DNA of 22,607 bases, taken from positions 1 through 22,607 of IMG/VR virus record IMGVR_UViG_3300029309_000372; one strand, written 5' to 3'. Source of the DNA: a virus. Every line of letters starts with the position of its first letter. Position 1 is the stretch's first letter. Of this stretch, positions 2,071 through 22,607 are shown piece by piece. Below the pieces are notes generated by a model. That model was not told where the DNA came from and did not search any database. It saw only the letters and a program-made list of their open reading frames with translations. The translations under genes and the position numbers were made by a program.

Positions 2071-2238
2071 ATGAATCAAGTTAAATGTGAAAAGTGTAAG
2101 AAAAGCTTAGCAGATTTTTCTGACAACACGGATTGGGGTGATGGTACAGGTGAAGATGAATACTTTTGTCATGACTGTGAAATAAGTACCGTCATGCCTT
2201 ATAAGAAAGTATATGAAAAACCATACACACTAGAATGA
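2071..2238 (+). CDS. Small zinc-ribbon-like protein (55 aa)
   Basis: Starts at ATG 2071 five bases after GGAGAG-type purines (2060-2065). It carries two CxxC knuckles, CEKC near residue 6 and CHDC near residue 35, separated by an acidic loop (DWGDGTGEDE). This arrangement is that of a zinc ribbon, a fold used for nucleic-acid or protein binding. Its TGA (2236-2238) overlaps the methyltransferase ATG (2235-2237) in an ATGA junction, so the two are probably translated together. It could be an accessory factor of the methyltransferase, but that is inference from position only. Confidence 0.65.
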   Translation: MNQVKCEKCKKSLADFSDNTDWGDGTGEDEYFCHDCEISTVMPYKKVYEKPYTLE

Positions 2239-5035: not shown

Positions 5036-5451
5036 GAGTTTAGTGCTAGTCCATAAATATCAAATCAAACCTAGTGTTGGCCTTTTTTTCTCCCAAAACT
5101 ATTTTTTTTGACCGGGCGACCCTAAAAAACAAAAAACAACCTAATATCAGTAACTTACGCACACGATAATTTATTGCGTTTCCGGGCATTGTTAATTTAT
5201 GTTGGTCGCATAGTGTCCACAGTGCTAACATCTACACTTTTATGCGGCCAAAAAGCCTATAAACACGGGACTCTATTGGATTCCAAAACCAAATCTCAAA
5301 AAATAATAATTTATTGACCGCACCCCAAAAATATCAGGGCTGCTGTCACAACAGCTATTGCAACTAAGTTATAAAAATTCAATATCCATTTTTCATCGCA
5401 AGTGTTGTTCACAACATAAATTAATGTATAATCTTTTTTAAAGGACATAAC
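5036..5451. other. Gap after terS with no supported gene
   Basis: About 416 bases, richer in C and T on the + strand than the surrounding purine-rich coding DNA. It holds a T8 run followed by a GC-rich patch (GACCGGGCGACCC, around 5110-5122), an exact 11-base direct repeat ATAATTTATTG (5166-5176 and 5306-5316), a small hairpin (5342-5355) and, at its end, a promoter. A 61-codon minus-strand frame (5046-5231) lacks a ribosome site and family resemblance, so I do not call it. A small RNA or a remnant of an excised gene is possible. Confidence 0.5.
5405..5432 (+). promoter_or_regulatory. Probable sigma70-type promoter
   Basis: TTGTTC at 5405-5410 and TATAAT at 5427-5432, spaced 16 nt, just ahead of the ribosome site and ATG at 5452. 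As at 735 and 6754, the -35 box is preceded by GTG (AGTGTTG). It ends the non-coding gap and would start the accessory operon. Confidence 0.6.
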
Positions 5452-5879: not shown

Positions 5880-6731
5880 ATGCAAAATAATTTTTTTGTT
5901 AAAGAACCCTCAATAATTAGTTTTAGTGGTGGAAGAACATCTGGTTATATGCTTTATAAAATATTACAAGCTCATGGTGGGATATTACCTAATTATTGCC
6001 GGGTAGTTTTTTGTAACACAGGTAAAGAAATGCAGCAAACTTTAGATTTTGTTAATGACTGTCAAAAAAACTGGGGTGTCAATATTGATTGGTTAGAGTT
6101 ATCAGGTGTTGATAAACACGGCTATAAGCCAACAGAAAATAGTAGAGATTGGATTTTTAAATACAGAATTACAGATTACGACAATTGTTTTAAAAATGGA
6201 GAACCTTTTGAAACTTTAATAAATCACTATAATAAACTGCCTAACGCAACTAATAGATTTTGCACATACTTAATGAAACAAAGAGCTATTATTTGGTATG
6301 AAAAGATTAACAAACTTGTTAATCCAACTCATATATTAGGTTTAAGATACGATGAACCACATAGAGTGCATAGAATAAAAGCAAGAAAAGATAACAAACA
6401 TCATATATGTCCACTTTATGATGAAAAAATTACAAACATTGATGTTGCAGAATTTTGGCGCAAAAGTAATTTTGATTTACGATTGATTGCAAAAAACGGA
6501 CACACAGTGTTTGGTAATTGTGACATGTGTTTTCTAAAAGGAAAAAATCAATTAACACACATGATGCGAGAAAAAAAAGATTTAGCTGATTGGTGGATAG
6601 AGCAAGAAGAAAAAACAGGTAAAACTTTTAAGTATGATATTTCTTTTAAAGAATTAAGAGACAAAGATAAAAAACAATTAAAGTTTAATTTTGATACTGA
6701 AGAAAGTATTGATTGTTTTTGCCACGATTAA
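5880..6731 (+). CDS. PP-loop PAPS-reductase-family protein
   Basis: A 283-residue member of the adenine nucleotide alpha-hydrolase superfamily that resembles phosphoadenosine phosphosulfate reductase. The PP-loop SFSGGRTSGYML is at residues 14-25, where ATP or an adenylylated substrate would bind. A GLRYDEPHR motif (154-162) follows, like the conserved GIRADEPRR of phage homologues. Cysteines occur at 128 (RFCTY), in a CDMC pair (214-217) and in a terminal CFCH (279-281), suggesting an iron-sulfur or zinc site. Phage proteins of this family are common but their substrate is usually unproven; sulfur-based nucleic-acid modification (DndC-like) and sulfur assimilation are both possible. No dnd partner genes are visible. 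The ribosome site is weak, so translation may couple to the gene ending at 5873. Confidence 0.8.
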   Translation: MQNNFFVKEPSIISFSGGRTSGYMLYKILQAHGGILPNYCRVVFCNTGKEMQQTLDFVNDCQKNWGVNIDWLELSGVDKHGYKPTENSRDWIFKYRITDYDNCFKNGEPFETLINHYNKLPNATNRFCTYLMKQRAIIWYEKINKLVNPTHILGLRYDEPHRVHRIKARKDNKHHICPLYDEKITNIDVAEFWRKSNFDLRLIAKNGHTVFGNCDMCFLKGKNQLTHMMREKKDLADWWIEQEEKTGKTFKYDISFKELRDKDKKQLKFNFDTEESIDCFCHD

Positions 6732-8411: not shown

Positions 8412-8644
8412 TTAAAGAAATTGAAATGATTAAAATGCGTAAGGACATCAATTATCTATTGAAAAATTATTTTAATTCAAGAACTGGCATGGCTAAAGCT
8501 TTGGGTATTGTACCCAAGGTGTTGAGTGATATAACTATAAAAAAAGTAACACCGCAAGATGAAAAATTTTTATATTTGCATCATAAAATTATAGAAATAA
8601 AACAACAAATAAAAGAAGCAGAGGAGTATCAACCAAATGGATAA
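8408..8644 (+). CDS. Small HTH-like putative DNA-binding protein (78 aa)
   Basis: ATG 8408 overlaps the preceding stop as ATGA. Residues about 22-48 (NSRTGMAKALGIVPKVLSDI) have the spacing of a Cro/C1-type helix-turn-helix: a helix, the turn A-LGI-P, and a recognition helix. The first and last thirds are charged helices (KIIEIKQQIKEAEE) that may dimerise. It overlaps the recombinase by 8 nt. In phages such a pairing fits a regulator of recombinase expression, and the inverted repeat at 8191-8215 is a candidate operator for autoregulation. Function is inferred from motif and context; I cannot name a family. Confidence 0.55.
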   Translation: MIKEIEMIKMRKDINYLLKNYFNSRTGMAKALGIVPKVLSDITIKKVTPQDEKFLYLHHKIIEIKQQIKEAEEYQPNG

Positions 8645-9380
8645 ACTACAATACGAATCAATTTACGGCTACTGCCGGGTGTCATCAGATGAACAAGCCA
8701 AGCACGGCACATCTTTGGCTGAACAAAAAAAGACTATAATTAAGATGTCTATGTATCTGTTTGAAAGAGAACCTGACGGTTTTTATGTCGATGACGGTAT
8801 TAGCGGTGCATTAGATTTCTACAAAAGACCAGAAGGAAAAAAATTGCAGAATGTACTCGAACCCAACGATGTAGTATTAGTCGCAAAGCTTGATAGGTTG
8901 ATTAGAAGATTGAGTGTGCTTTGTAGTGTGCGTGATGCGTTTAATGAGACAAACATACATTTGTTTGCGCACGATATTTTAGGTGGCGCTGAATCTATTA
9001 GCACCTCAAATTCACCAAACGTAAATATGTTTGTAAACATGATGGGAACTTTTGCAGAGTGGGATAGAGAGGAAACCGCACGAAAGTTGTATCAAGGTAA
9101 GATGGCTTGTGTTGAGCAAGGCCGACACATAGGCGGTGGTGTGCCATACGGCTATGAGTTGGTAAAGCAAGGCAGACATAAATACCTCAAAGAAATACCA
9201 GCACAACAAGAAATCATTGACTATGTAGATAAATCATTAGCTAGACACAAAAGAAATGGTCGCAAAACTCCGTGGCGCAGTATTTCAAAACAAATTAAAT
9301 CTTTGTATAACGCAGATATACCACCGTGGAAAGTTTCACGAATTGCACTAAGAAAGTTTAAAGAACGAGCAAGTGTGTGA
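8637..9380 (+). CDS. Short serine recombinase (resolvase/integrase family)
   Basis: A 247-residue serine recombinase. The N-terminal catalytic domain has YCRVSSDEQ (12-20, nucleophile probably Ser16), VDDGISGALDFYKRP (51-65), the arginine-bearing KLDRLIRRL (84-92) and the long-helix start EWDREETARK (141-150). After residue 165, GGGVPYGYELVKQGRHKYLK resembles the start of the Recombinase domain (PF07508). The protein then ends with a short helical part containing TPWRSISKQI and PPWKVSRIAL, probably the DNA-binding helix-turn-helix. It is longer than a Hin-type invertase (about 190) but much shorter than large serine integrases (450 or more), lacking the zinc and coiled-coil modules. It could integrate, resolve or invert DNA; no att or inversion sites are apparent nearby. 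Confidence 0.88.
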   Translation: MDKLQYESIYGYCRVSSDEQAKHGTSLAEQKKTIIKMSMYLFEREPDGFYVDDGISGALDFYKRPEGKKLQNVLEPNDVVLVAKLDRLIRRLSVLCSVRDAFNETNIHLFAHDILGGAESISTSNSPNVNMFVNMMGTFAEWDREETARKLYQGKMACVEQGRHIGGGVPYGYELVKQGRHKYLKEIPAQQEIIDYVDKSLARHKRNGRKTPWRSISKQIKSLYNADIPPWKVSRIALRKFKERASV

Positions 9381-9392
9381 TATATTTGTGCA

Positions 9393-9797
9393 ATGGACAA
9401 CGAGAATAAAACTGCTCCGACTGTTGGCACGATAGAACCCATACCCATTTATGAGCAAACACCTATCTTGGATATGTTGCCAACTGAAGTTAAAAATGCC
9501 TTACAAGGCATAGGCGGTTTATTAGATGACCCAGTGATTGCAATACCCGGAGGCTTTACTCGTATGCCACTTAAACAATTGCTTAAAGAATTAGCAGAAC
9601 GTAAAACCATCTTCAATCAACAAAAAGCAAAATATAATCGAGCTAAAGATGTTTACATTAGTGCTGTAAGAGATGGTTATGCACCAGATATAGATGAAAG
9701 TGTCAAAATTATGAACAACACAGAAAGTTACGGCAAGGTTTTAAAAAAAGAAATGGATGAACTTCAAAAACTAATAGATAACCATGGCGACACTTGA
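9393..9797 (+). CDS. Hypothetical protein (134 aa), start of structural region
   Basis: Begins at ATG 9393, 12 nt after the recombinase, without a clear ribosome site. The N-terminal 60 residues are proline-rich (TVGTIEPIPIYEQTPILDML) and include a GGL/GGF segment; the remainder is a long charged helix (QLLKELAERKTIFNQQKAKY through to KEMDELQKLIDNH) that is likely a coiled coil. It overlaps the 808-residue gene by 14 nt. Its place at the head of the virion gene block suggests a scaffold, internal virion or assembly protein, but that is inference. I do not recognise a family. Confidence 0.6.
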   Translation: MDNENKTAPTVGTIEPIPIYEQTPILDMLPTEVKNALQGIGGLLDDPVIAIPGGFTRMPLKQLLKELAERKTIFNQQKAKYNRAKDVYISAVRDGYAPDIDESVKIMNNTESYGKVLKKEMDELQKLIDNHGDT

Positions 9798-12210
9798 TAA
9801 CGTAAATCTATTTGCACCCAAAGACCCTGAAACAGGTAAAACCTATGAATTATTTGATGCTGAGGCCATAAAACAAAAACAAAGACAACAAAAACAACAA
9901 AGAGATAAAGCTGCAAGAGTTCTTGCAGAAGAACTTGAAGCTGGCAACATAAAAAAAGCTTACGAAGAAGGTTTTACGCAGTTGCCTATTCTTGAACAAC
10001 TTTTGTATTACATTAACCCAGTTACAGGCGTTCCAATAGAAACTTATGAAACTGGTTATTTTACAAAAGAGGGTGGTCTGGGCATAAAAACACCTAGAGA
10101 AATGTTAGTTGATGCCATTGACCCACGTAAAAACATATTTCAAAAATCGTTCTTAAAAGCTGATGACCCATTATCGGCAGCTATTGCACCACTTTCAGCG
10201 CTTGGTGCAGCAGGTGGTGTTTTCGAATTAGCCAACATACCCAAAGCAGGCTTGATGGCTCTTAGAAGATTTCAACAAAAAACTATGGACGGTGGTGGCG
10301 GTGGTATCGGAGGCTTGCCGCCGACTACTTTAGATGAAGATGTAAACAAATTTGCTCGTTACGGAGATTTTGTGTCACCCACCATAGAAGCTTTAATTAG
10401 AAACGCACCAAAAAATATCAAAGGTAAACAAATAATTGAATATCTAAACTCTAAAGGTGCGCCTAGTGCAGGCATAAAACCCAAAGAATTACCTTATCTT
10501 GGTATAGAAAGATTTATCGAAGAAAACCCTAACGCTACGTTGCCTGAGGTTATTGAACATGCAGCCAAAAACAAAGTGCAAGTAGGAGAAGTCGTGTACA
10601 GAGATATTGGCACAAAGGGTTCTGATTTTTATTTTGACAGGTCTACACCTGAGTTTGACCCTAAATCAGGCGAAATTATCTATCAACATATAATAGATGA
10701 TATTGTTTACGATGTTAAAAATAAGCAAGGTGCTTACGTTGATGATATATTAGAAAGCTATGTACAAAGATTAACGCCTGATGAATTGATAAACGATTAT
10801 GGGTACGTTGACCCAAATGATTTTACTGTTGACGATATGATAAATAGAATCAACAAATCTGTTGAATCAGGCGCAAGCACTGAAACACTTGAAGATATAA
10901 TAGAAGAAAAAGCAAGAGACATATACTTTTTAAACCCTTACAAATTAATCAAACCTGAAGGCGAAGGTTTTACAGGGGGAGACATGACTTTTGCTTTTGG
11001 TAATAGCGAGATAGGTTATCAAAACTTTATAGATGGCGAAAGAATAGACATTAAAGACTATGGCTACGATGACGTTGCATATTCAGCAACTGAAGCCGAG
11101 GTTCGTTTACAACGTATTTTAGAAGAACGAGAAGATATTGATATAGGCATGTATGCGGGCAACCAAAAATATAAAACATACGTTGATGAAACTTTGCCCG
11201 GCGGAAAAAATTATACAGAAAAAGTGTATACCTTTGAAAATACAGATGAATTTGCACCACCTTTAGGTCACTATGATGAAGATACACAAATTGCTCATAA
11301 ACTTGGTAGAGATAGATTACTTGAAGACGGCACACTTTCTGTGCATGCTGACGAAATACAATCTGATTTTCATAAAGAGGGTAAAAGGAAAGGTTACAAA
11401 GACCCTGAACAAGATGTAGATGATGTAATTAAGCTAGGTCGTATGTCTAGCAAAATCAGTATGGAGTTTAAAGCATTAAAAGATAAAGTATTACCTGTTC
11501 TTGATGAATCTTCTATAGATAGAGGTAGGTTAGCAAACATAGAAACTTTAGTGGCTAACGCAGAGGAGCTTTATGGTCAGTCTCCGCAAAGTAGACGTGC
11601 TATAATAGCATTAAGCAATGCTAGAGGAAATATGTACGATGGTTTGGTAGTGGCTAACAAAGACCCAAATCATAAATTTTTTAATTTTTCAAACTTTGAT
11701 GAAGCTTTTAGCCCAGCTTATGAATTAGCAATGATAAGAGAAAACAGAGTCCCCAATTTCCCATTCAAAGGCGATGATTACGGCGAGATGGTGTTGAAAC
11801 AAATGATTTTAGATGCAATTTATGAAGGCAAAGATGCTATTTCTGTTTCAACTTCAACGCCTATATTGGCAAGGTATGAAATGACACCGGGTAGTGATGA
11901 AGCACAATTTTTTGAACGCTTTTACGATTCAACCTTACCAAAATCAATGAATAAGATAGCCAAAAAATACGGCGGTAAGTTTGAAAAAGGTAGTTTAGAT
12001 TTAGAAGATACTTTGGGTGAGATGGCGATATCAACGACTTTTGCAGGCAACCCACGAGATGAAATAGTAAAAGCAAACATCTTACGCATTACACCTGAAA
12101 TGAAAGCAAAGATAAAAAAAGAAGGTTTGCCACTCTTTAACATGGGTGGTAAAGTTACAAAAAGAAAATTTATGGATAAACCCATAGAAGGCAACAGAAG
12201 AGAAATGTAA
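9784..12210 (+). CDS. Large phage polyvalent-type protein (808 aa)
   Basis: The largest protein of the window. N-terminus: a glutamine/lysine-rich helix (AIKQKQRQQKQQRDKAARVL), then a mildly hydrophobic Ala/Gly stretch (about 130-160) and a GGGGG linker near residue 170. The middle is acidic with many Asp/Tyr. From about residue 515 it carries ADEIQSDFHKEGKRKGY (Glu524), followed near 660-690 by VPNFPFKGDDYGEMVLKQMI and DAIYEGKDAISVST, and later a YDSTLPKSMNKIAKKYG segment. This ordered set resembles a domain found at the ends of phage polyvalent proteins and large virion proteins (the EIQSD type); its activity is not established to my knowledge. The C-terminus (LFNMGGKVTKRKF...) has an MGG motif seen in proteins of marine phages. 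It is probably packaged or injected, judging by length and neighbours. Confidence 0.6.
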   Translation: MATLDNVNLFAPKDPETGKTYELFDAEAIKQKQRQQKQQRDKAARVLAEELEAGNIKKAYEEGFTQLPILEQLLYYINPVTGVPIETYETGYFTKEGGLGIKTPREMLVDAIDPRKNIFQKSFLKADDPLSAAIAPLSALGAAGGVFELANIPKAGLMALRRFQQKTMDGGGGGIGGLPPTTLDEDVNKFARYGDFVSPTIEALIRNAPKNIKGKQIIEYLNSKGAPSAGIKPKELPYLGIERFIEENPNATLPEVIEHAAKNKVQVGEVVYRDIGTKGSDFYFDRSTPEFDPKSGEIIYQHIIDDIVYDVKNKQGAYVDDILESYVQRLTPDELINDYGYVDPNDFTVDDMINRINKSVESGASTETLEDIIEEKARDIYFLNPYKLIKPEGEGFTGGDMTFAFGNSEIGYQNFIDGERIDIKDYGYDDVAYSATEAEVRLQRILEEREDIDIGMYAGNQKYKTYVDETLPGGKNYTEKVYTFENTDEFAPPLGHYDEDTQIAHKLGRDRLLEDGTLSVHADEIQSDFHKEGKRKGYKDPEQDVDDVIKLGRMSSKISMEFKALKDKVLPVLDESSIDRGRLANIETLVANAEELYGQSPQSRRAIIALSNARGNMYDGLVVANKDPNHKFFNFSNFDEAFSPAYELAMIRENRVPNFPFKGDDYGEMVLKQMILDAIYEGKDAISVSTSTPILARYEMTPGSDEAQFFERFYDSTLPKSMNKIAKKYGGKFEKGSLDLEDTLGEMAISTTFAGNPRDEIVKANILRITPEMKAKIKKEGLPLFNMGGKVTKRKFMDKPIEGNRREM

Positions 12211-13301
12211 TGGCAGTAGATTATTTAAGAGATTACTTAGGTATTGACCCAGCTGACTATTCAGCCATGGAAAGAACCATTGCTGGTGTGTCGCCTGTTG
12301 GCCAATCTATTATTCCTAACATGGGCGTACCATCAACACCACAGCAAAGAATGATTGATGCTACACCTATTCCGTTTAGTCCTATGCCCATGCAAGATTT
12401 TGGCTCACAAATAAGCGGACTAGAAGAGCAAATAAGTAAATTAATGGAACAAATCGGTGCGCTAGAAGCAGAAAAAAACGCTGCACTTCAGCAACAAGAT
12501 GTAATGCGAGCCGAATTAGCACAAGCACAACAAGATGCTCTTACAGAGCAAGCAAGCGAGTTTGAAGGTGTAAAATCAGGTTTAGAGCAACAAATAGCTG
12601 ATTTAACCGCACAAATAGGTAATACTCAGACACCAACAGAAACTCCTATAGGTAAAGAAAGAAGTAGTTTAGGTCCACCAGAAAGACCTCCTGTAGCTGG
12701 TTTTACATCGTTACGAGAAAGGAATAGACCAATACCACTAGAAGATTTTGGCTTTGGACCCGGCATAAGACGTTCAGAAGATTTTTTTAGACCAGAAGAA
12801 TTAAGGAGAATCAACTCCATCAATCAAATACGTGGTAAAGTCCCAAATACATCATCAAGACAAATATTAGGTAAAGATGCACAAGGTAACGTGATTTTAG
12901 GTGATATTATAGAGCCAATAAAACCACCTCCATTTATTCAACAATTAAAACCACCTTCACTAGAAAGACCATTAGAGAGACTGCCATCAGGACCTAGAAG
13001 ACAAGATTTTATGTCAATAAATAGATTAGGTAGAGAAGCTATGGATATTCCACCACCAATGCCTAGTCCTGTAGCACCCATACCACCCAGTATACCACCC
13101 ATGACTCCACCCATGACACCAAGGCCTAGACCAAGACCTGTTCCTATGCCACAACCCATGACACCTAGTATGCCTATTGACATGCCTAGAATGGGCGGTG
13201 CAAGAGGCGGATTTTCAGGCACTATGAGACCAACTATGATGCGAGCAGGCGGAGGCGGTATCTCAAAAGCTATAGTAGATTTACAAAGCAGACTTAAATA
13301 A
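12210..13301 (+). CDS. Coiled-coil and proline-rich virion-type protein (363 aa)
   Basis: ATG 12210 overlaps the preceding TAA by one base. The N-terminal 65 residues are a mixed region with PIPFSPMPMQDFG. Residues about 67-140 are a regular coiled coil (SGLEEQISKLMEQIGALEAE and onward, then GLEQQIADLTAQIG). The C-terminal half is low complexity: proline/methionine/arginine-rich (TPPMTPRPRPRPVPMPQPMT) and ends in a glycine patch with MMRAGGGGISKAIVDL. Such a rod plus flexible tail fits an internal virion or tail protein. The MGGARGG and RAGGGG motifs echo the MGG at the end of the previous protein. No enzyme motif is visible. Confidence 0.6.
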   Translation: MAVDYLRDYLGIDPADYSAMERTIAGVSPVGQSIIPNMGVPSTPQQRMIDATPIPFSPMPMQDFGSQISGLEEQISKLMEQIGALEAEKNAALQQQDVMRAELAQAQQDALTEQASEFEGVKSGLEQQIADLTAQIGNTQTPTETPIGKERSSLGPPERPPVAGFTSLRERNRPIPLEDFGFGPGIRRSEDFFRPEELRRINSINQIRGKVPNTSSRQILGKDAQGNVILGDIIEPIKPPPFIQQLKPPSLERPLERLPSGPRRQDFMSINRLGREAMDIPPPMPSPVAPIPPSIPPMTPPMTPRPRPRPVPMPQPMTPSMPIDMPRMGGARGGFSGTMRPTMMRAGGGGISKAIVDLQSRLK

Positions 13302-15017: not shown

Positions 15018-15377
15018 ATGGCAACCCCAAATTTAGTAAATGTAACCACTGTAACTCCATTCACAATAAATGGAGCAGTAACAACTTCTAATCAAGATAT
15101 TATTGATGTGACAGCAGAAACATGTCGTAAAATTAACACAATATTGATTGCAAACGTAGATGGTACAAATGCAGCAGATGTCACTGTTTCAATATCAACT
15201 GATAATGGCAGTACCTCTCGTTCCATAGCATCGACCATTTCAGTACCAGCAGATTCAACATTATCGTTATTATCTACTACCCTTTATTTAGATGAAACAG
15301 ATATATTAAAAATACAAGGTAGTGCTAATAATGATTTAGAATACACGGTATCTGGTGAAATTTTAAATGACGCATAA
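15018..15377 (+). CDS. Small virion-type protein (119 aa)
   Basis: Good ribosome site (AGGAGA, 15008-15013) and ATG 15018. A Thr/Ser/Val-rich beta protein (NLVNVTTVTPFTINGAVTTS, then NVDGTNAADVTVSISTDNG) with an immunoglobulin-like strand pattern. The segment CRKINTILIANVDGTNAADV followed by SVPADSTLSLL resembles small structural proteins found beside fibre genes in marine phages, where the domain packs against tail proteins. This is recognition by pattern, not by search. It sits between two fibre-type genes in the same operon. Confidence 0.65.
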   Translation: MATPNLVNVTTVTPFTINGAVTTSNQDIIDVTAETCRKINTILIANVDGTNAADVTVSISTDNGSTSRSIASTISVPADSTLSLLSTTLYLDETDILKIQGSANNDLEYTVSGEILNDA

Positions 15378-15388
15378 AGAGTTAGAAC

Positions 15389-15847
15389 ATGGCTCACTTT
15401 GCAGAACTTAATAGCACCAACGAAGTAATACGAGTAATAGTAATATCTAATGATGATATTAATGCTAATGGTGGCGATTATTCTTCACAAGCAGAAACTT
15501 TTGTATCTAACTTAATTCCACACTCAGAAAATGGTGTTGCTTGGAAACAAACTTCATATAATGGCAACCAACGCAAACAATACGCGGGTATTGGATATAC
15601 TTATGATGCAGCAAAAGATAAATTTATTGCTGCGAAGCCTTTTGCCTCTTGGTCATTAGATTCTAACGATGATTGGAGTGCGCCTGTCACTTACCCTAAT
15701 GTTAAAGAAGTAAACTCTAATCCTGTTGAAATTTTTTGGGATGAAGATAATAAAAAGTGGTTAGGTAAAACTTACACAGGTAAAAATGCACAAACTATAA
15801 CAGACTATGAGTGGGATTATAGTGGTCTTTCATGGAGTGAGGTTTAA
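15389..15847 (+). CDS. Marine-phage virion protein (152 aa)
   Basis: Starts at ATG 15389. The N-terminus MAHFAELNSTNEVIRVIVIS is a hallmark of a virion protein found in many cyanophages and other marine phages, where it follows fibre genes. The centre contains GVAWKQTSYNGNQRKQYAGI and GYTYDAAKDKFIAAKPFASW, the latter a conserved KDKFI.KPF.SW segment. The C-terminus (VEIFWDEDNKKWLG, later YEWDYSGLSWSEV) is aromatic-rich. Its precise place in the particle is not clear to me. It overlaps nothing and precedes the polyglycine protein by two bases. Confidence 0.75.
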   Translation: MAHFAELNSTNEVIRVIVISNDDINANGGDYSSQAETFVSNLIPHSENGVAWKQTSYNGNQRKQYAGIGYTYDAAKDKFIAAKPFASWSLDSNDDWSAPVTYPNVKEVNSNPVEIFWDEDNKKWLGKTYTGKNAQTITDYEWDYSGLSWSEV

Positions 15848-15849
15848 TT

Positions 15850-16857
15850 ATGTCAGAGGGTAATGGTGGAATAATTGGACCAAACAATACAGTACAAACA
15901 AGCACGCAAAGTGAAGTAATAACTACTTTCAATGCTAGTGGAACCTTAACTACAGCAACACATACAAAAGAATTACAATACCTTATAATTGCAGGCGGTG
16001 GCGGTGGTGGTGGCCATCCTGTGGCTCCAACATTTACAGTAGGAACTAGAGGTGACACTTCTTCTATAGCAGGAACCCCCATAACAACTGTGGACACAGT
16101 TGGAGGCGGTGGAGGAGATACAGGTTTTTTTACACCCAACCCCGGTAATCAACCCGGAGGCTCTGGAGGAGGGGGAGGTCGTTTCGCCACAGGCACAGGC
16201 ACTACAGGTCAAGGTTTTGCAGGTGGGAATGGTATAAGAGCAGCACATGGAGGCACAGATTTATCGGGGGGTGGCGGTGGAGCAGGTAGTGTAGGAGAAA
16301 ACAATCAACCTCATAACAGTCCCAATGGTAGGCGTAGTGGAAATGGTGGTTCAGGAGTTGCATCATCAATAACTGGCTCACCTGTCACGAGAGCTGGTGG
16401 CGGAGGTGGTGCAAGCAACTATGTTAACTCTCCACAACAAACTGGTTCAGGAGGCCCGGGGGGTGGTGGAAATGGAGGAAATGGAGGGCATACAGGCTCT
16501 AGTGGTACAGCAAATACTGGAGGTGGCGGTGGTGGTTGGAGCGATGCTATTACTGGTTTCCAAAACTTTGGAGGCGGAGGTGGAGCAGGCGGTTATAGAT
16601 GTTCTGTTCCGGGTGAAAGTAGTGGTGGAGGTGCTTCGGCTGAATCCACACTAACCGTTGTAGGGGGTACACCTTACACTATAACTGTAGGAGCAGGAGG
16701 AGCAGGAGCAGCAGTACCAGAAGGCAATGGTTCAAATGGCGGTTCTGGTGTAGTTATAACCAAAGAACCAGCCGTTGATTTTGTTTCTGGTGCTTCTGGA
16801 GTTTGGAGCTTGGATGAAGTTTATGACTTTGTAAAAGCTGGAACTTGGACAAATTAG
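15850..16857 (+). CDS. Polyglycine adhesin-like tail protein (335 aa)
   Basis: Starts at ATG 15850, just after the previous stop, with GAGG at 15838-15842. After 35 residues the segment YLIIAGGGGGGG opens a glycine-rich domain (PF21722-like). At least nine further glycine runs follow, e.g. GGSGGGGGRF, SGGGGGAGS, GPGGGGNGGNGG, TGGGGGGW and FGGGGGAGG. In T4-related gp38 adhesins, similar runs fold as polyglycine type II helices carrying receptor-binding loops between them; this protein probably works likewise as a receptor-binding tip. The loops between runs are the likely variable, specificity-setting parts. The C-terminus GVWSLDEVYDFVKAGTW is a conserved end seen in marine phage fibre proteins. 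Confidence 0.75.
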   Translation: MSEGNGGIIGPNNTVQTSTQSEVITTFNASGTLTTATHTKELQYLIIAGGGGGGGHPVAPTFTVGTRGDTSSIAGTPITTVDTVGGGGGDTGFFTPNPGNQPGGSGGGGGRFATGTGTTGQGFAGGNGIRAAHGGTDLSGGGGGAGSVGENNQPHNSPNGRRSGNGGSGVASSITGSPVTRAGGGGGASNYVNSPQQTGSGGPGGGGNGGNGGHTGSSGTANTGGGGGGWSDAITGFQNFGGGGGAGGYRCSVPGESSGGGASAESTLTVVGGTPYTITVGAGGAGAAVPEGNGSNGGSGVVITKEPAVDFVSGASGVWSLDEVYDFVKAGTWTN

Positions 16858-16878
16858 CAATCTTTTACATAGTAAAAA

Positions 16879-17499
16879 ATGAATCTTAAATGGTATTATT
16901 GGTACTTTCAATCTGCTATACCAAAAAGAATTTGTGATGACATGGTGCGTTATGGTAAAGAGCAAGATAAACAAATGGCTCTCACAGGTAATTCACAAGC
17001 TGAAAATCTCAGCGAAACAGACCTTAAAAACATACAAAAGAAACGTAAATCAGACGTGGTTTGGATGTCAGACCGATGGATTTACAAAGAAATACAACCT
17101 TATATACATCAAGCAAACGCAAATGCTGGTTGGAATTTTGAATGGGATTGGTCTGAGGCCTGTCAGTTTACAGAATATAAAAAAGGTCAATTTTATGATT
17201 GGCATTGTGATTCGTATATTGAACCATATAATCAACCAGAAGACCCAAATACACATGGTAAGCTAAGAAAACTTAGCATGACTATATCTCTTACCGACCC
17301 TATAGAATATGAAGGTGGTGATTTAGAGTTTGATTTTAGAAATCAAGATGAAGCATCACAACCTAGAATATGTAAAGAAATTAGGCCAAAAGGCAGCATT
17401 ATAGTTTTTCCTTCTTTTGTTTGGCATAGGGTCACACCTGTTACTAAAGGAACACGGCACTCCTTGGTGTGTTGGAATTTAGGACATCCATTTAAATGA
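16879..17499 (+). CDS. 2-oxoglutarate/Fe(II) oxygenase, prolyl-hydroxylase-like (first of four)
   Basis: A 206-residue enzyme of the 2OG-Fe(II) dioxygenase superfamily, of the prolyl 4-hydroxylase-like type (PF13640). The Fe ligands are visible as WHCDSY (His109, Asp111) and FVWHRV (His183), and the 2-oxoglutarate arginine as KGTRHSL (Arg193). A double-stranded beta-helix core (KLSMTISLTDPIEYEGGDLEF) lies between. Such enzymes hydroxylate protein side chains or nucleobases using O2 and 2-oxoglutarate. The substrate is unknown. It follows the polyglycine protein by 21 nt without a clear ribosome site and ends in an ATGA overlap with the next oxygenase, so all four may be co-expressed. Confidence 0.85.
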   Translation: MNLKWYYWYFQSAIPKRICDDMVRYGKEQDKQMALTGNSQAENLSETDLKNIQKKRKSDVVWMSDRWIYKEIQPYIHQANANAGWNFEWDWSEACQFTEYKKGQFYDWHCDSYIEPYNQPEDPNTHGKLRKLSMTISLTDPIEYEGGDLEFDFRNQDEASQPRICKEIRPKGSIIVFPSFVWHRVTPVTKGTRHSLVCWNLGHPFK

Positions 17500-18044
17500 T
17501 TACTAATTTAAAAAACCCTATAACAGAAGATTACAAAAATTTAAAAAATTTAGTATTAAGCTATAGTTTTCCTTGGTATTATCTAAATAAAACCGTACAT
17601 GAAACAAATAAAAAAGATATGGGGTTTTTTGCTCATTGTCTATTAGGCAGACCTGTACATGAAATCGATGGGAAAAAAGTACCTGCTATACCTGAAAGCT
17701 CTTCTGGTTATTTTCATCAATGTTATTTTATTTTAAAAGAAATATTAGATTTTAATAATATAGATTTTGAAGTTATGTATCGTATGAATATAAACATGAC
17801 ACCACATAGTTGTGTGAAAGAAAGCGTGCCTCACACAGATTTAAACTTACCACATAAAGTTGTTATAGTTTACTTAAACACATTTTCAAAAGGTAGAACA
17901 GTAGTTTTAGGAGAAGATAAACAAAAATTTTATTCAAATCCAAAAGAAGATAATGTAATTTTATTTGATGGCAAATTAACACACTTTCAAGAAAGTCCTG
18001 ATAAAAATGAAAAAAGAATAGTTATGGTTGCAAACTTTCAATAG
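17496..18044 (+). CDS. 2OG-Fe(II) oxygenase-like protein (second of four)
   Basis: A 182-residue protein overlapping the previous one by four bases. The predicted iron site is PHTDLN (His113, Asp115) with THFQES (His163), and the 2-oxoglutarate arginine lies in NEKRIVMVANF (Arg174). The strand pattern between them (HKVVIVYLNTFSKGRTVVLG and DNVILFDGKLTHF) is that of the beta-helix core. This is a different subfamily from its upstream neighbour, with little local similarity. The N-terminal half has aromatic residues (SYSFPWYYLNKTVHETN) that may form the substrate pocket. Reaction and substrate unknown. Confidence 0.78.
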   Translation: MITNLKNPITEDYKNLKNLVLSYSFPWYYLNKTVHETNKKDMGFFAHCLLGRPVHEIDGKKVPAIPESSSGYFHQCYFILKEILDFNNIDFEVMYRMNINMTPHSCVKESVPHTDLNLPHKVVIVYLNTFSKGRTVVLGEDKQKFYSNPKEDNVILFDGKLTHFQESPDKNEKRIVMVANFQ

Positions 18045-18052
18045 GAGTTTAA

Positions 18053-18646
18053 ATGAGTTTTAAAACAGAAAAGTATCAGATAATTAAAGGTGCAATATCA
18101 AAAGAATTAGCAGATTTTTGTTACCAGTATTTTTTAAATAAAAGAAAAGTAGCTAGACATTTGTTTGATACCCACTACATATCACAATTTACTGAATACT
18201 TTGGAGTTTGGAATGATACACAAGTACCTGAAACTTACTCTCATTATTCTGACATAGTTATGGAAACTTTATTGCAAAAAGTAAAACCAATTATGGAAAA
18301 AGAATCAGAAACTAAACTTATAGAAACTTATTCTTATGCAAGAATTTATAAAAATGGTGATGAATTAAAACGACACAAAGATAGATATTCTTGTGAAATA
18401 TCAACGACTATGTATTTAGGTGGAGATGAGTGGCCAATATATATTGAGCCTAATATCAAAGTTAATTTGAAACAAGGCGATATGTTAATGTATCGTGGTT
18501 GTGAATTAGAACATTGGAGAGAACCCTTTGAAGGTGAAGATTGTGGACAAGTATTTTTACACTATAACAATGCAAGCAGTAAAAATGCTAAACAAAATAA
18601 ATTTGATGGTAGGCCTATGTTAGGATTACCAGCATTTTTTAAATAA
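18053..18646 (+). CDS. 2OG-Fe(II) oxygenase-like protein (third of four)
   Basis: A 197-residue protein with ribosome site AGGAG at 18044-18048. Core motif ETYSYARIYKNGDELKRHKD (91-110) carries His108 and Asp110, and GCELEHWREPF carries His154. The strand between, SCEISTTMYLGGDEWPIYIE, matches a family of oxygenases common in marine phages and bacteria, in which RHxDR and EHWRE motifs flank a WPIYI strand. In that family the distal end reads QVFLHY (166-171) rather than a plain arginine. I am confident of the fold and less sure of the substrate. It shares little with its neighbours outside the core. Confidence 0.82.
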   Translation: MSFKTEKYQIIKGAISKELADFCYQYFLNKRKVARHLFDTHYISQFTEYFGVWNDTQVPETYSHYSDIVMETLLQKVKPIMEKESETKLIETYSYARIYKNGDELKRHKDRYSCEISTTMYLGGDEWPIYIEPNIKVNLKQGDMLMYRGCELEHWREPFEGEDCGQVFLHYNNASSKNAKQNKFDGRPMLGLPAFFK

Positions 18647-18648
18647 TA

Positions 18649-19146
18649 ATGTACGAAACTTATCATTGTGATATTTTAGAAAAAATAAACAGTAAAATTT
18701 TTTTAAAAAAACTGCAATCTTTTATAAAAAAAAATCCATGTTGTAGAGACTATCCCCAATGCGAACACGCAAGAATTCAATCTAATGGAACTTTATTTAA
18801 ACATTTCAAAAAGTTAAATGACTCTATTGATACTACTGTATATAGATATTTAGGCTATCAACCAAATATTTTACATAAAAAATGTTGGGTGTTTTTAAAC
18901 AAAGCAGACGAGAAAATAGATTCTATAAGGCATAATCACGTATATGATTCTAAAAAATTTAGCATATCAGCAATAGCGTATTTAACTGAAACTGATTTTG
19001 GAACTAGATTTTGTGATGGCGAAAAAATAAAACCGCAAGTAAATCATTGGAATGTATTTGATTCAAGACTTTATCATCAAGCTGAAGAAGGTGTACCAAA
19101 AATAGATAGATATGTGTTAGCTTTTGATGTGGTTATAGGCGACTAG
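18649..19146 (+). CDS. Oxygenase-like protein with variant metal site (fourth of four)
   Basis: A 165-residue protein starting two bases after the previous stop, without a visible ribosome site. The C-terminal half matches the pattern of putative 2OG-Fe(II) oxygenases of the PF13759-like kind: SIRHNHVYDSKKFSISAIAY (His95, His97), GTRFCDGE, then VFDSRLYHQAEEG (His143) and KIDRYVLAFDVV (Arg154). The first motif is HxH where the classical site is HxD; this could be a subfamily feature or a sign of a changed metal site. Cysteines CC (31-32), C38 and C79 are not arranged as a zinc site. Function unknown, oxygenase fold inferred. Confidence 0.6.
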   Translation: MYETYHCDILEKINSKIFLKKLQSFIKKNPCCRDYPQCEHARIQSNGTLFKHFKKLNDSIDTTVYRYLGYQPNILHKKCWVFLNKADEKIDSIRHNHVYDSKKFSISAIAYLTETDFGTRFCDGEKIKPQVNHWNVFDSRLYHQAEEGVPKIDRYVLAFDVVIGD

Positions 19147-19158
19147 ACAATTTTACAC

Positions 19159-19164
19159 TATAAT
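19159..19164 (+). promoter_or_regulatory. Perfect -10 hexamer in a 60-nt gap
   Basis: TATAAT at 19159-19164 lies in the intergenic gap before the gene at 19207. No -35 box lies at 16-18 nt, so it may need an activator or be chance. A similar lone TATAAT occurs at 13959-13964, ahead of the fibre gene at 13984. Confidence 0.3.
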
Positions 19165-19206
19165 ATTAGTAACTCTGCAATACATATTTTATTTAAGGAG
19201 AATAAT

Positions 19207-19368
19207 ATGAGTTTTTTGAAAAAATTATGGGGTAATTTAACCAATACAGAAGAAGTAAAAGTTAGAACACGTAACAAAAAAGGACACTATGTAGCTGACG
19301 ACAAATCTACACCAAATGTAAATGAAGCTTGGACTACTAAAAGAATAAAAAAAACATCTAAAAAGTAA
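19207..19368 (+). CDS. Small basic protein (53 aa)
   Basis: ATG 19207 follows AAGGAG (19195-19200) by six bases. The product, MSFLKKLWGNLTNTEEVKV then RTRNKKGHYVADDKSTPNVN, is strongly basic, with an N-terminal amphipathic helix (SFLKKLWGNL). The KKGHYVADDKSTPNVNEAW segment is a pattern I associate with small phage proteins placed near lysis genes, but I cannot name the family. Its stop overlaps the nuclease ATG by one base (TAATG), so the two are translated in tandem. A lone -10 hexamer lies upstream. Confidence 0.6.
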   Translation: MSFLKKLWGNLTNTEEVKVRTRNKKGHYVADDKSTPNVNEAWTTKRIKKTSKK

Positions 19369-19748
19369 TGGCTAAATCACCAGATGCGTTTGTTTACAAC
19401 GCAACCCTAGAACGTATTGTTGACGGAGACACATTTGATTGTTGTCTTGATTTAGGGTTTGACGTTAAATTGCATAAGCAAAGAGTACGTTTAGCTCAAA
19501 TTGATACCCCAGAATCCAGAACAAGAGATTTAGCAGAAAAAAAATTAGGCTTAGCTGCAAAAGCTAGGCTTAAAGAATTGTGTGTAGGTAAAATTAAAAT
19601 CAAATCTTTAGGCAAAGGCAAGTACGGAAGAATACTTGGAATACCCTATACAGAAGATGGTAAAGATATTTGTCAAATACTTATAGATGAAGGACATGCA
19701 GTTTTTTACGATGGAGGCAAAAAAACTAAAGTTTGGGGTGATTACTAA
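19368..19748 (+). CDS. Thermonuclease (staphylococcal nuclease-like)
   Basis: A 126-residue SNase-fold Ca-dependent nuclease. Relative to staphylococcal nuclease, the active-site set is intact: VDGDTFD (Asp19, Asp21), RLAQIDTPES with Arg41, Asp46, Thr47 and Glu49 in the canonical +5, +6, +8 spacing, and GKYGR with Arg88. There is no signal peptide, so it acts inside the infected cell or is released at lysis. Possible roles are degradation of host DNA or RNA, or processing during packaging. Located between the oxygenases and the CsgF/G module; its stop overlaps the next ATG by one base. Confidence 0.88.
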   Translation: MAKSPDAFVYNATLERIVDGDTFDCCLDLGFDVKLHKQRVRLAQIDTPESRTRDLAEKKLGLAAKARLKELCVGKIKIKSLGKGKYGRILGIPYTEDGKDICQILIDEGHAVFYDGGKKTKVWGDY

Positions 19749-20098
19749 TGGACGCAGCCGTCACAGTAATACAAGAAGTAGGCTTTCCTATAGCAGCAGC
19801 AATAGGATTAGGTTGGTTTATCTACAAGCTTGTTATAAGAATAGTTGATGGCATGGAGCAAAAATTAGATATTGTTGATGAAAAAGTAGCACAACAAATT
19901 AGTGCCATAGAAGAACGATTAGGCACTAAACTTGACTCGCAACATGGTATTTTAGTAGCATTGATAGATAGAGTTCGCAGTTTAGATAATGAAATCATAA
20001 GACAAGATACTCTTATAAAAACTATACTAGGCGTGCCACAATTAATAAATAGCAATAAAATTGCTAAAGCAGAAAGAGATGACCAAAGAAAAGATTGA
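19748..20098 (+). CDS. Single-span membrane protein with coiled coil (holin-like candidate)
   Basis: A 116-residue protein: a short outside tail (MDAAVTVIQEV), one transmembrane helix (GFPIAAAIGLGWFIYKLVI, about 12-31), then a long charged helical region (EQKLDIVDEKVAQQISAIEE and onward), consistent with a cytoplasmic coiled coil. The VGFPIAxAI start resembles small YvrJ-like or BhlA-like phage proteins, some of which act as holins. No endolysin is visible in the window, so a lysis role rests on fold and position only. It overlaps csgF by 20 bases. Start ATG 19748 uses TAATG coupling to the nuclease. Confidence 0.6.
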   Translation: MDAAVTVIQEVGFPIAAAIGLGWFIYKLVIRIVDGMEQKLDIVDEKVAQQISAIEERLGTKLDSQHGILVALIDRVRSLDNEIIRQDTLIKTILGVPQLINSNKIAKAERDDQRKD

Positions 20099-20579
20099 TA
20101 AAGAAGAATTAGAAAGATATAGACTTACAATAAGCTTGGTTTTTATAGGTTTTATATTATTTATTGGAGTTATTGCGATTAATTTAAAAGCAGACACTAT
20201 TACACATAAATTTAAGTCACCCTCATTTAGTGGTGTCGGCACTTCTAGTCATTATCTGACAATTGAAAATCAACAGTACACTCGTAAGCTTACTATTAAA
20301 GAAGAAATAAAAGCTTTACAAGATGAAATAGAAAGAGAAAAAGAGAACTCGACCCTAGCTAGGTTTATGCGTAATTTAGAATCAAGAGTGTACGCTGAAC
20401 TCTCTCGTCAATTAGTAAATAATTTATTTGGCGAAACACCGCAAAGCGAAGGTGTCATTACTTTAGAGGGAAATACAATTGAATATACGAGTGATGGCGT
20501 AACACTAACCCTAAAAATTACAGAAGCAGATGGCACAGTTACGGAAATCATCATACCTATTGGCACTTTTACTTTCTAG
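20079..20579 (+). CDS. csgF: CsgF-like curli assembly protein
   Basis: A 166-residue CsgF homologue. ATG 20079 is chosen over TTG 20061: it gives a charged n-region and overlaps the preceding gene by only 20 nt. A hydrophobic helix (SLVFIGFILFIGVIAI) precedes DTITHKFKSPSFSGVGTSSH, which lines up with the mature start of E. coli CsgF (GTMTFQFRNPNFGG). That segment inserts into the CsgG channel in the known curli complex. Further matches are SRVYAELSRQLVNNLFGE and the beta C-terminus (GNTIEYTSDGVTLTLKITEA). A charged stretch (EIKALQDEIEREKENS) is inserted compared with E. coli. The signal helix is preceded by an unusually long n-region (about 15 residues). Order csgF-csgG is as in bacteria. Its 3' end overlaps csgG by 50 nt. 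Confidence 0.82.
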   Translation: MTKEKIDKEELERYRLTISLVFIGFILFIGVIAINLKADTITHKFKSPSFSGVGTSSHYLTIENQQYTRKLTIKEEIKALQDEIEREKENSTLARFMRNLESRVYAELSRQLVNNLFGETPQSEGVITLEGNTIEYTSDGVTLTLKITEADGTVTEIIIPIGTFTF

Positions 20580-21363
20580 TTGTTCTATAACACATCAACT
20601 TGAAGATACTTATGAACAAAGGTTTTCAAAAGACGTAGCAACCATACAAGAACTACAATCTGTAGAACTTAAAAATGTCCCCATACCTGAAGTAAGTCCA
20701 GTAGTTGCTGTATATCCTTTATCATTCACAGACCAAACAGGACAAAGAAAAAGCAACAGCGAGTTTGCTTTATTCTCTACTGCAATAACTCAACAACCAA
20801 ACGCTTTATTGATTAGAGCTTTAAAACACACAGGAGATGGCAAGTTTTTTAGAGTGGTTGAAAGAGTTGGTTTAGACAATCTAACTAAAGAAAGACAGCT
20901 AATAAGGTCAGCAAGAGAACAATCTGGTAATGAAGAAGAAAAGAAAAAAGCACTTAGGCCATTATTGTTTGCAGGTATTTTAATAGAAGGCGCTGTCATA
21001 TCTTATGAAGCAAACCTTGAAAGTGGAGGTGCAGGTGCTAGATATTTAGGCATAGGTAAAAGTGTTATGTACCGGGAGGACAACATAACCATAAGTATGC
21101 GCATGGTTTCTGTTGCAACAGGTGAGGTATTGTTAGAAGTTTTAAGTCAAAAAACTATTTTTAGTTACGGTAAATCAGAAGATGTATTTCGCTTTGTAGA
21201 AGCTGATAGCGAGTTAGTAGAAATAGAGCTTGGTAATGCTAGAAACGAGTCATCTACAATAGCCTTGATGAAAGCTATAGAAGGCGCTGTGCTAGAGATA
21301 GTTAATACAGGCTATGACAAAGGGTTTTGGGTTTTACAAAATAAAAACGAAGGAGTAGAATAA
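20530..21363 (+). CDS. csgG: CsgG-like outer-membrane export lipoprotein
   Basis: A 277-residue CsgG, the nonameric outer-membrane channel of curli export. The signal MAQLRKSSYLLALLLSS ends in a lipobox, with lipidated Cys18. The core is close to E. coli CsgG: VVAVYPLSFTDQTGQ, ERVGLDNLTKERQLIRSARE, AVISYEANLESGGAGARYLG (E. coli GYESNVKSGGVGARYFG), and VATGEVLLEV. The constriction segment FALFSTAITQQPNALL aligns with ASNFSTAVPQSATAML: Phe82 keeps the E. coli Phe56, while Asn55 is replaced by Leu81 and Tyr51 by Ser77. The start lies in a different frame within csgF (overlap 50 nt) with no clear ribosome site, so translation is probably coupled. The full-length fold suggests a working pore rather than a remnant. 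Confidence 0.93.
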   Translation: MAQLRKSSYLLALLLSSCSITHQLEDTYEQRFSKDVATIQELQSVELKNVPIPEVSPVVAVYPLSFTDQTGQRKSNSEFALFSTAITQQPNALLIRALKHTGDGKFFRVVERVGLDNLTKERQLIRSAREQSGNEEEKKKALRPLLFAGILIEGAVISYEANLESGGAGARYLGIGKSVMYREDNITISMRMVSVATGEVLLEVLSQKTIFSYGKSEDVFRFVEADSELVEIELGNARNESSTIALMKAIEGAVLEIVNTGYDKGFWVLQNKNEGVE

Positions 21364-21367
21364 AATT

Positions 21368-22093
21368 ATGAAAAATAAACTAATAAGCATACTAGCTACA
21401 TGCTCTCTTGTGGTTTTTGCTGCTGACAATGAAATATATGTTGACCAGTCAGGAACAGGTGCAAACATTGATTTAGAGCAACTTGGTATTTCAAACATTA
21501 TAGGTGGGTTAAATTCAACTGCTGGTAGTGTCAATGCTTTTGATTTAGACGGTAATAGTATGACACTTGATATTAATATGATTGGTGCAACTAATAAGTT
21601 TTTAGGTGATATTTTTGCAGATAACTTTACAGGATTCTATGAGTTTGATGGTGGCACAAATTCTTTTACTATACAGGTAGACCCAACTGATACTTATAGT
21701 GCAGATGGCTCTAATCAGAATGTCGATGTTACAGGCAGTGGTAATACCTTTACTTTAAATCAAGGCACAAGCGCTCTAGCATCACAACTAGACTTAGATT
21801 GGATAATTAATGGCTCAAACAACACCATTACATCTAATATAAATATTGATGGCGCTACCAATTATATGGATATTGACGGTTCTGATAACACTCTAACCTA
21901 TACAGGTACAGGTGTCACAGCATCAGCAGGTGGATATTTTTATCTTGACCACACAGGAGGCTCTAGGACTTTTAATGTACAACAGCTATCAACACAGGAC
22001 AACGATTGGCTTAAAGTTATTTCAGTTTCTGGCACTGCTGCTTCTACTGTTTGTATTATTCAAAACGACCAAGGTACAAGCACAAGCTGTTGA
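21368..22093 (+). CDS. Exported curlin-like repeat protein (241 aa)
   Basis: AGGAG (21351-21355) precedes ATG 21368. MKNKLISILATCSLVVFAA is a Sec signal peptide, cleaved near VFA/ADN. The mature start YVDQSGTGANIDLEQLGISN has the Q-x-G then N, and Q-x-G-x-x-N, pattern of curlin repeats (compare CsgB IDQTGDYNLAYIDQAGSAN). The rest follows a looser G-x-x-N rhythm at about 11-residue steps: glycines 29, 40, 62, 73, 95, and again GSNN, GATN, GSDN near 149-174. A beta-solenoid fits. The end (TVCIIQNDQGTSTSC) has two cysteines that could form a disulfide. Directly behind csgG, it is the natural candidate substrate, though strict curlin repeats occur only at the start. Its last 119 nt also encode the start of the next gene. 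Confidence 0.75.
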   Translation: MKNKLISILATCSLVVFAADNEIYVDQSGTGANIDLEQLGISNIIGGLNSTAGSVNAFDLDGNSMTLDINMIGATNKFLGDIFADNFTGFYEFDGGTNSFTIQVDPTDTYSADGSNQNVDVTGSGNTFTLNQGTSALASQLDLDWIINGSNNTITSNINIDGATNYMDIDGSDNTLTYTGTGVTASAGGYFYLDHTGGSRTFNVQQLSTQDNDWLKVISVSGTAASTVCIIQNDQGTSTSC

Positions 22094-22607
22094 TATAGGT
22101 GACATATCTGAGCTAAACGGCACAGCACAAATTGTCCGAGATAAGCCATACGATGCTAATTTAAAGTTTGCTATACAGAGCAACGATGAGGCCATAACTA
22201 AAGATGGTCGCATGGCTATTAAATTTTTAGATGATTCTGTAGTTAAACTTACAGAATGGTCTGAACTTGTCATAGACTCATATATATTTGACCCGGACCC
22301 TAGTAAATCTAAGATGGCTTTAACATTTGGTTTAGGCACAGCAAGGTTTATTACAGGCAATCTTAATCGTATAGACAAACAGAATATTCAACTAAAAACA
22401 CCTACTGCAAATATAGCAATTAGAGGTACTGATTTTACTGCTACGGTTGATGAATTAGGTAGAAGTCTAATTATTCTTTTGCCTGATGCTTTTGGTTTAT
22501 CTAGTGGTGAAATAGAAGTAGTAACAGCTATGGGTACAGTAATACTTAATAAACCTTATGAAGCTACTACAGTAAGCGTGTTTGAGTCTGCACCTACTAA
22601 GCCTGTA
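21975..22607 (+). CDS. Exported FecR-domain protein (3' end beyond window)
   Basis: The frame beginning at ATG 21975 is open to the window end (211 codons). AGGA at 21965-21968 is six bases upstream. The N-terminus is a clear Sec signal peptide: TTIGLKLFQFLALLLLLFVL and then a cleavage motif AQA (36-38) before VDIGDISELNGTAQIVRD. This start region is out of frame with, and nested inside, the last 119 nt of the curlin-like gene. Mature residues carry KDGRMAIKFLDDSVVKL and TPTANIAIRGTDFTATVDE, the typical FecR domain (PF04773) segments. FecR domains occur in periplasmic regulators and surface proteins; here, beside csgG, a periplasmic or surface role in the export module is likely. No FecI-type sigma factor is present in the window. 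The 3' end is not seen. Confidence 0.85.
   Translation, partial: MYNSYQHRTTIGLKLFQFLALLLLLFVLFKTTKVQAQAVDIGDISELNGTAQIVRDKPYDANLKFAIQSNDEAITKDGRMAIKFLDDSVVKLTEWSELVIDSYIFDPDPSKSKMALTFGLGTARFITGNLNRIDKQNIQLKTPTANIAIRGTDFTATVDELGRSLIILLPDAFGLSSGEIEVVTAMGTVILNKPYEATTVSVFESAPTKPV

Follow-up and report, generated by a model that had tools for sequence, protein, structure and literature searches.

Why would a phage carry four oxygenase-like genes in a row, directly behind the gene of a putative tail adhesin? We addressed this question in a 22,607-base IMG/VR virus record (IMGVR_UViG_3300029309_000372), which we refer to as the window. Few 'auxiliary' genes of ocean phages are copied as often as those of 2OG oxygenases; the papers we found describe their function as uninvestigated and guess at DNA repair or nitrogen metabolism. 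Marine phages are already known to carry clusters of these genes (PMC3037559; PMC9599517; PMC9602691, where one genome has 24), and a likeness of phage 2OG oxygenases to prolyl hydroxylases has been noted in structure-based annotation (PMC12774648). New here, as it appears, are the fixed link of the oxygenases to a Gly-rich protein and its partner H, and the sulfotransferase, carbamoyltransferase or halogenase that joins them in relatives. Within the open literature, we found no paper that ties marine-phage 2OG oxygenases to a tail adhesin or proposes tail hydroxylation.

The locus and its host

The original prediction of four adjacent oxygenase-like genes at 16879–19146 agrees with the open reading frames, the metal sites, the database matches and the structural models of C and D. 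Genes A, B, C and D adjoin one another, all on the + strand, and encode 206, 182, 197 and 165 amino acids, respectively. Together with the two genes upstream, the locus reads as follows:

15389–15847, + strand: H, 152 aa, partner gene of the Gly-rich protein (phrog_7759, 5e-35)
15850–16857, + strand: Gly-rich adhesin-like protein, 335 aa, 30% Gly (PF21722, phrog_2295)
16879–17499, + strand: A, 2OG-Fe(II) oxygenase (PF13640, phrog_61); HCD109–111...H183...R193
17496–18044, + strand: B, 2OG-Fe(II) oxygenase-like (phrog_274); HTD113–115...H163...R174
18053–18646, + strand: C, 2OG-Fe(II) oxygenase-like (phrog_2954); HKD108–110...H154; prolyl-4-hydroxylase fold in the model
18649–19146, + strand: D, variant oxygenase-like, remote paralogue of B; HNH95–97...H143...R154

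A and B share 4 bp (ATGA), B and C are spaced by 8 bp and C and D by 2 bp. Only 21 bp separate the end of the Gly-rich gene from A, which bears out the predicted position next to a tail adhesin. This tight spacing suggests that the Gly-rich gene and A–D belong to a single transcription unit with the tail genes; a promoter and terminator scan of 15300–19800 returned matches at chance level. The label 'Gly-rich adhesin' is a judgement from composition, position and a weak match to PF21722 (Gly_rich_2, 3.7e-4, under the cut-off); phrog_2295 is matched at 4e-21.

The window probably derives from a marine phage with a SAR11 (Pelagibacter) host, an assignment based on curli genes and on the similarity of A and C to cultured phages. 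HTVC033P is the closest of these, with 66% identity for A and 71% for C. Curli secretion genes are located downstream of the cassette, CsgF at 20061–20579 (PF10614, 9e-15) and CsgG at 20530–21363 (PF03783, 1e-45), followed by a FecR domain at 21912–22607 that is open at the window end. One study reports curli genes (CsgF, CsgG, FecR) for pelagiphages (PMC9599517).

Elsewhere, the window encodes a PAPS-reductase-type protein (5880–6731; PF01507, 3e-8; phrog_424, 1e-46) and, near structural genes, a serine recombinase (8637–9380; resolvase domain PF00239, 8e-21) that may be a DNA invertase or an integrase. A C5-cytosine DNA methyltransferase of 629 aa (2235–4124) has two separate PF00145 matches; judging by its PHROG matches, a long insert seems to separate the N-terminal from the C-terminal methylase part. 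For an 808-aa protein (9784–12210), neither Pfam, PHROG nor tblastn against 50,697 phage records gave a match. A nearby-DNA search of the phage collection found no relatives.

Metal sites and predicted folds of A–D

The HxD/E...H pattern of the 2OG-Fe(II) oxygenase superfamily is present in A, B and C and absent from D. Gene A is clearly a 2OG-Fe(II) oxygenase: it matches PF13640 at 9e-16 and phrog_61 at 1.6e-38, its HxD...H metal site is intact in 207 of 207 homologues, and its putative 2OG anchor R193 is Arg or Lys in 205 of the 207. Profile comparison with the PDB retrieves PKHD-type hydroxylases (3dkq, PiuC) and also the chlorella-virus P4H vCPH (5c5t), and these matches, together with PF13640, predict a double-stranded beta-helix fold.

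Gene B matches phrog_274 at 1e-31 and has no significant Pfam match. Its HxD...H site is intact in 65 of 66 homologues, and the putative 2OG anchor R174 is kept in 64 of them. Motif and homology to D point to a 2OG-Fe(II) oxygenase-like protein. We rejected the name 'DNA endonuclease V' attached to phrog_274 (DenV, PF03013), as B proteins have no match to the Pyr_excise domain. PF03013 is present in only 3 of 11 phages (P-RSM4, S-CAM8 and Mosig), where it lies far from the cassette. In P-RSM4 (NC_015283, 134.6–136.6 kb), a PF03013 gene at 134.6 kb lies 1.2 kb from a B-family gene at 136.1 kb that bears the name 'denV', and the misleading phrog_274 name may stem from this PF03013 neighbour.

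Gene C matches phrog_2954 at 1.9e-51, again without a significant Pfam match. Its HxD...H site is intact in 227 of 227 homologues; no Arg or Lys, the usual 2OG anchor, stands 9–11 residues past the distal His, and a nearby Gln, Q166, is conserved in 223 of 227. The AlphaFold2 model (pLDDT 90.6) adopts the 2OG-oxygenase (double-stranded beta-helix) fold. A Foldseek search of the PDB places P. putida P4H, PHD2 and vCPH foremost (E down to 9e-9) and also returns amino-acid halogenases/hydroxylases and the epimerase SnoN; TM-scores for C and D are moderate, about 0.5–0.66, so that these are matches at the level of the fold. By sequence, C and B/D yielded no useful match in the PDB; the fold search alone gave matches.

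The name 'ferrochelatase' (phrog_2954, PF00762) was likewise rejected for C. The domain is matched in 0 of 7 phages whose C carries this name, the same PF00762 search being positive in 8 of 14 control genomes, and it is absent from the Pfam scans. The missing ferrochelatase signature, the modelled oxygenase fold and the metal site place C as another predicted oxygenase-type protein, not a ferrochelatase. Wittmers et al. 2022 (PMC9599517) take the 'ferrochelatase' for a partner that inserts iron for the oxygenases; the name has thus influenced a published interpretation.

Gene D is matched weakly by phrog_274 (9e-7) and phrog_81 (2e-6). HxH...H...R is found in 26 of 26 orthologues, so that the usual Asp is truly absent, and the putative 2OG anchor R154 is kept in all 26. 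The AlphaFold2 model (pLDDT 88.4) again shows the 2OG-oxygenase (double-stranded beta-helix) fold, and Foldseek against the PDB returns 2rg4/3bvc, P4H and PHD2 at E values of about 1e-6. The models of C and D thus show the anticipated fold, and the expected composition of three HxD...H genes and a fourth of related fold holds, with HxH in D. By profile match, 2rg4 is of the TIGR02466/PF13759 type and carries HIH at its site; a single-sequence search of the PDB with PF13759 returned nothing, and an alignment-based search gave 2rg4 and 3bvc. In addition, the E family, which replaces B in other cassettes, has HxH in 87 of 87 members. HxH in 2rg4 and in the E family indicates that the site of D is a recurrent variant rather than simple decay. 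We call D oxygenase-like, its activity being uncertain. About 30 IMG/VR contigs contain the D family, which has no tblastn match in the 50,697 phage records, isolated phages included. PF13759-type oxygenases with an invariant HxH also recur in cassettes of other contigs (4962–5648 in L118, 1365–1994 in L133, and relatives).

Kinship and selection

The four genes had been described as four different subfamilies. A, C and B/D are indeed unlike, and B and D are homologous by profile comparison (hhalign probability 98%, E 5.6e-14), which leaves three sequence groups (A; B/D; C). Profile comparisons of A with C and of C with D, made with shallow profiles, found no recognisable sequence similarity, and B and D are by their sequences only remote paralogues; the view that the genes are not recent duplicates is upheld. 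dN/dS values of 0.08–0.23 across A–D reveal purifying selection and mark all four as real, selected genes. Synonymous divergence between the window and a related contig (L012) amounts to 0.12 for A and 0.64 for B, a five-fold gap between neighbours that suggests recombination within the cassette.

Conservation of the cassette in other phages

We gathered homologues from IMG/VR with C, A, D and the unrelated gene H as queries, and GTDB contigs with C. The IMG/VR loci are the best-scoring, mutually related ones, picked by similarity, and counts among them measure conservation rather than independent trials: C adjoins A in 35 of 37 loci in which A is flanked by 4 kb or more on each side, A accompanies C in 32 of 32, and a Gly-rich ORF, A and C are all present in 51 of 51 H-selected loci whose downstream sequence spans at least 3.5 kb. 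In complete phage genomes with C, A is found on the same strand within 4 kb in 12 of 12 cases (3 podovirus-type, 9 T4-like). The co-occurrence on which the original prediction depended is thus far from random.

The commonest order in H-selected loci is Gly-rich, A, (B), C, (D), and the cassette genes in related loci mostly overlap or almost abut. In 50 of 51 loci, a Gly-rich ORF precedes A by no more than 4.5 kb, compared to 3 of 57 for control ORFs of the same contigs at a distance of more than 6 kb. GTDB contigs recruited by C alone (42–83% identity) repeat the order Gly-rich, H, A, ..., C (L283, L284, L290–L293), and hundreds of marine phages share the arrangement of oxygenase genes behind a Gly-rich tip gene. 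PF13640 is matched 30 times in four T4-like phages, pelagiphages and cyanophages. Of these matches, 16 sit no more than about 10 kb from the A/C pair, a region that comprises about 12% of the sequence, and the remaining 14 fall outside this cluster; tandem copies among the matches are not independent.

Cassette content is modular (AC, ABC, AEC, ABCD and others): A and C form the constant core, and B and D, or E, F and G in relatives, are exchangeable. This modularity fits a parallel modification of several sites as much as the stepwise pathway originally proposed. Inside relatives' cassettes we further found a sulfotransferase family (PF00685, 2e-11) and a Trp halogenase family (PF04820, 1e-29). 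The order Gly-rich, sulfotransferase, A occurs in 9 of the 51 H-selected loci; examples of a sulfotransferase between the Gly-rich gene and A are located at 5130–5894 in L059, at 1669–2433 in L040 and near 2569 in L281. A NodU-type carbamoyltransferase adjoins A in the cyanophages S-SSM5, P-RSM4, S-CAM8 and S-MS29, and a possible methyltransferase, weakly matched, is present in or beside relatives' cassettes.

H adjoins the Gly-rich ORF in most phages examined, with or without oxygenases. The pair occurs without C and without a nearby A in CRP-143, Greip, HTVC025P, phiPsal1 and Melnitz-3, from which it follows that the adhesin/H unit needs no cassette to work and that the cassette is an addition. 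The Gly-rich protein presumably resembles tail-tip adhesins such as S16-type gp38, being Gly-rich, variable and of tail-tip type; we know of no oxygenase cassette in gp38 phages.

Possible function of the cassette

We consider it just short of an even chance that the A–D cassette modifies the phage's own virion attachment proteins. This reading draws on the protein-hydroxylase folds, the company of tail genes, the tie to the variable Gly-rich tip and the group-transfer enzymes present in some lineages, and from it we infer catalysis, substrate and benefit as follows. The four genes would constitute an Fe(II)/2OG oxygenase cassette in the late tail operon, and during virion assembly the enzymes would hydroxylate residues of the Gly-rich tail-tip protein (most likely) or of the tail fibre beneath that tip. 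The exchangeable members B and D (E, F, G) would extend or alter the modification pattern, and in relatives a sulfotransferase, NodU-type carbamoyltransferase or flavin halogenase could act on the new hydroxyls or on other side chains. Such decoration may adjust binding to the receptor, make the fibre more stable in seawater or conceal it from decoys.

Most likely, the substrate of the cassette, or at least its functional neighbour, is the Gly-rich protein (15850–16857). The Pro-rich protein at 12210–13301 (363 aa, 14% Pro, with a coiled-coil-like stretch), which had been put forward as a conceivable substrate, has no consistent counterpart: among 35 cassette loci that extend at least 7 kb upstream, 34 contain no protein of at least 11% Pro there. 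We also attempted to derive the substrate from Gly-rich composition by cassette type, for example from Tyr content in the presence of a sulfotransferase, and abandoned this approach since the differences track lineage.

Somewhat less probable is the wider picture of a dedicated modular operon that would hydroxylate and, in some lineages, may also sulfate, halogenate or carbamoylate the receptor-binding tail-tip proteins. It would pass between unlike phage families as one module with the adhesin and combine HxH with HxD oxygenases.

The cassette could serve envelope or small-molecule modification instead: together with the added enzymes of relatives, it would alter a host surface glycan or lipid or produce a small molecule, for example to block superinfection, and proximity to the adhesin would reflect a shared host-surface theme. 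NodU-type carbamoyltransferases and sulfotransferases frequently act on glycans, both families are found in related cassettes, and a glycosyltransferase lies a few kb downstream in HTVC023P. However, the window's cassette is without glycan-synthesis genes and protein hydroxylases come closest in fold and in sequence, although C also matches amino-acid halogenases/hydroxylases and SnoN, and we regard this explanation as unlikely.

The published view for cyanophage 2OG oxygenases and dioxygenase-like proteins is metabolic (PMC3037559, PMC9602691). Transferred to the window, A–D would be auxiliary metabolic genes in a cargo hot spot by the tail-fibre genes; their products would use up 2OG or in another way change the nitrogen, iron or carbon metabolism of the host. 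The fixed position could also mirror such a hot spot, and cyanophage genomes carry oxygenase genes at other places too. Yet this explanation accounts neither for the fixed A–C pair and the set gene order that follows a Gly-rich structural gene in phages of unlike type nor for several unlike oxygenases in a row, where one suffices for a 2OG drain; we judge it quite unlikely. DNA repair or nucleobase hypermodification by AlkB-, TET- or JBP-like chemistry is highly improbable: a repair role for phage 2OG oxygenases has been proposed (quoted in PMC9146016, PMC3037559 and PMC11288001), older annotations and names like 'DNA endonuclease V' point to DNA and the C5-cytosine methyltransferase of the window (2235–4124) is a conceivable 5-methylcytosine source, but A–D have no Pfam match to AlkB or TET/JBP, the cassette lies in the tail operon away from the replication genes and the methyltransferase, and the endonuclease V domain is located elsewhere in genomes that possess it. 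Nucleobases, also suggested as substrates, thus gain no support here.

If modification of the phage's own attachment proteins proves true, host recognition by very abundant phages would rest on oxygen- and iron-dependent chemistry. Independently of function, two database names turn out to be misleading and are corrected here: 'ferrochelatase' for phrog_2954 and 'DNA endonuclease V' for phrog_274.

Comparison with known systems

By sequence, A has its closest solved relatives among the PKHD-type hydroxylases (Sbal_3634, 3dkq; PiuC, 9ghl; YbiX), which it matches at E 3e-8 to 1e-7 and whose metal site is identical; PiuC is tied to iron uptake. However, A scores at best 61 of 143 bits, far under the NCBIfam equivalog cut-offs. 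Prolyl 4-hydroxylases, namely P. putida P4H with EF-Tu (4iw3), vCPH of PBCV-1 (5c5t/5c5u) and PHD2, are the best fold matches of C and among the best of D, and vCPH is also matched by A in sequence; sequence identity to the phage enzymes is just 10–18%. The putative oxygenases of the TIGR02466/PF13759 type (2rg4, 3bvc), the best fold matches of D, share its HxH in place of HxD, whereas D reaches only 16.8 of the 62.5 bits of the TIGR02466 family cut-off, has no PF13759 match and is related to B by sequence.

Among phages, the HTVC023P-type pelagiphage groups (Wittmers et al. 2022, PMC9599517) are of the same kind and carry the A and C families. Several unlike 2OG oxygenases are clustered there and a 'ferrochelatase' is always beside one of them; in the accessible part of that study, no link to a Gly-rich adhesin is drawn. 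The cyanophage cluster T4-GC 412/615/240/101/155 (Sullivan et al. 2010, PMC3037559; S-SM1, S-RSM4, S-SSM5), which has been interpreted in print in terms of 2OG/nitrogen metabolism or DNA repair, includes A as T4-GC 412 and C as T4-GC 615. There, A and C are adjacent or at most 4 kb apart, near tail-fibre genes, a Gly-rich protein and H. It differs from the cassette of the window in comprising up to about 10 oxygenases and, in some phages, a NodU-type carbamoyltransferase.
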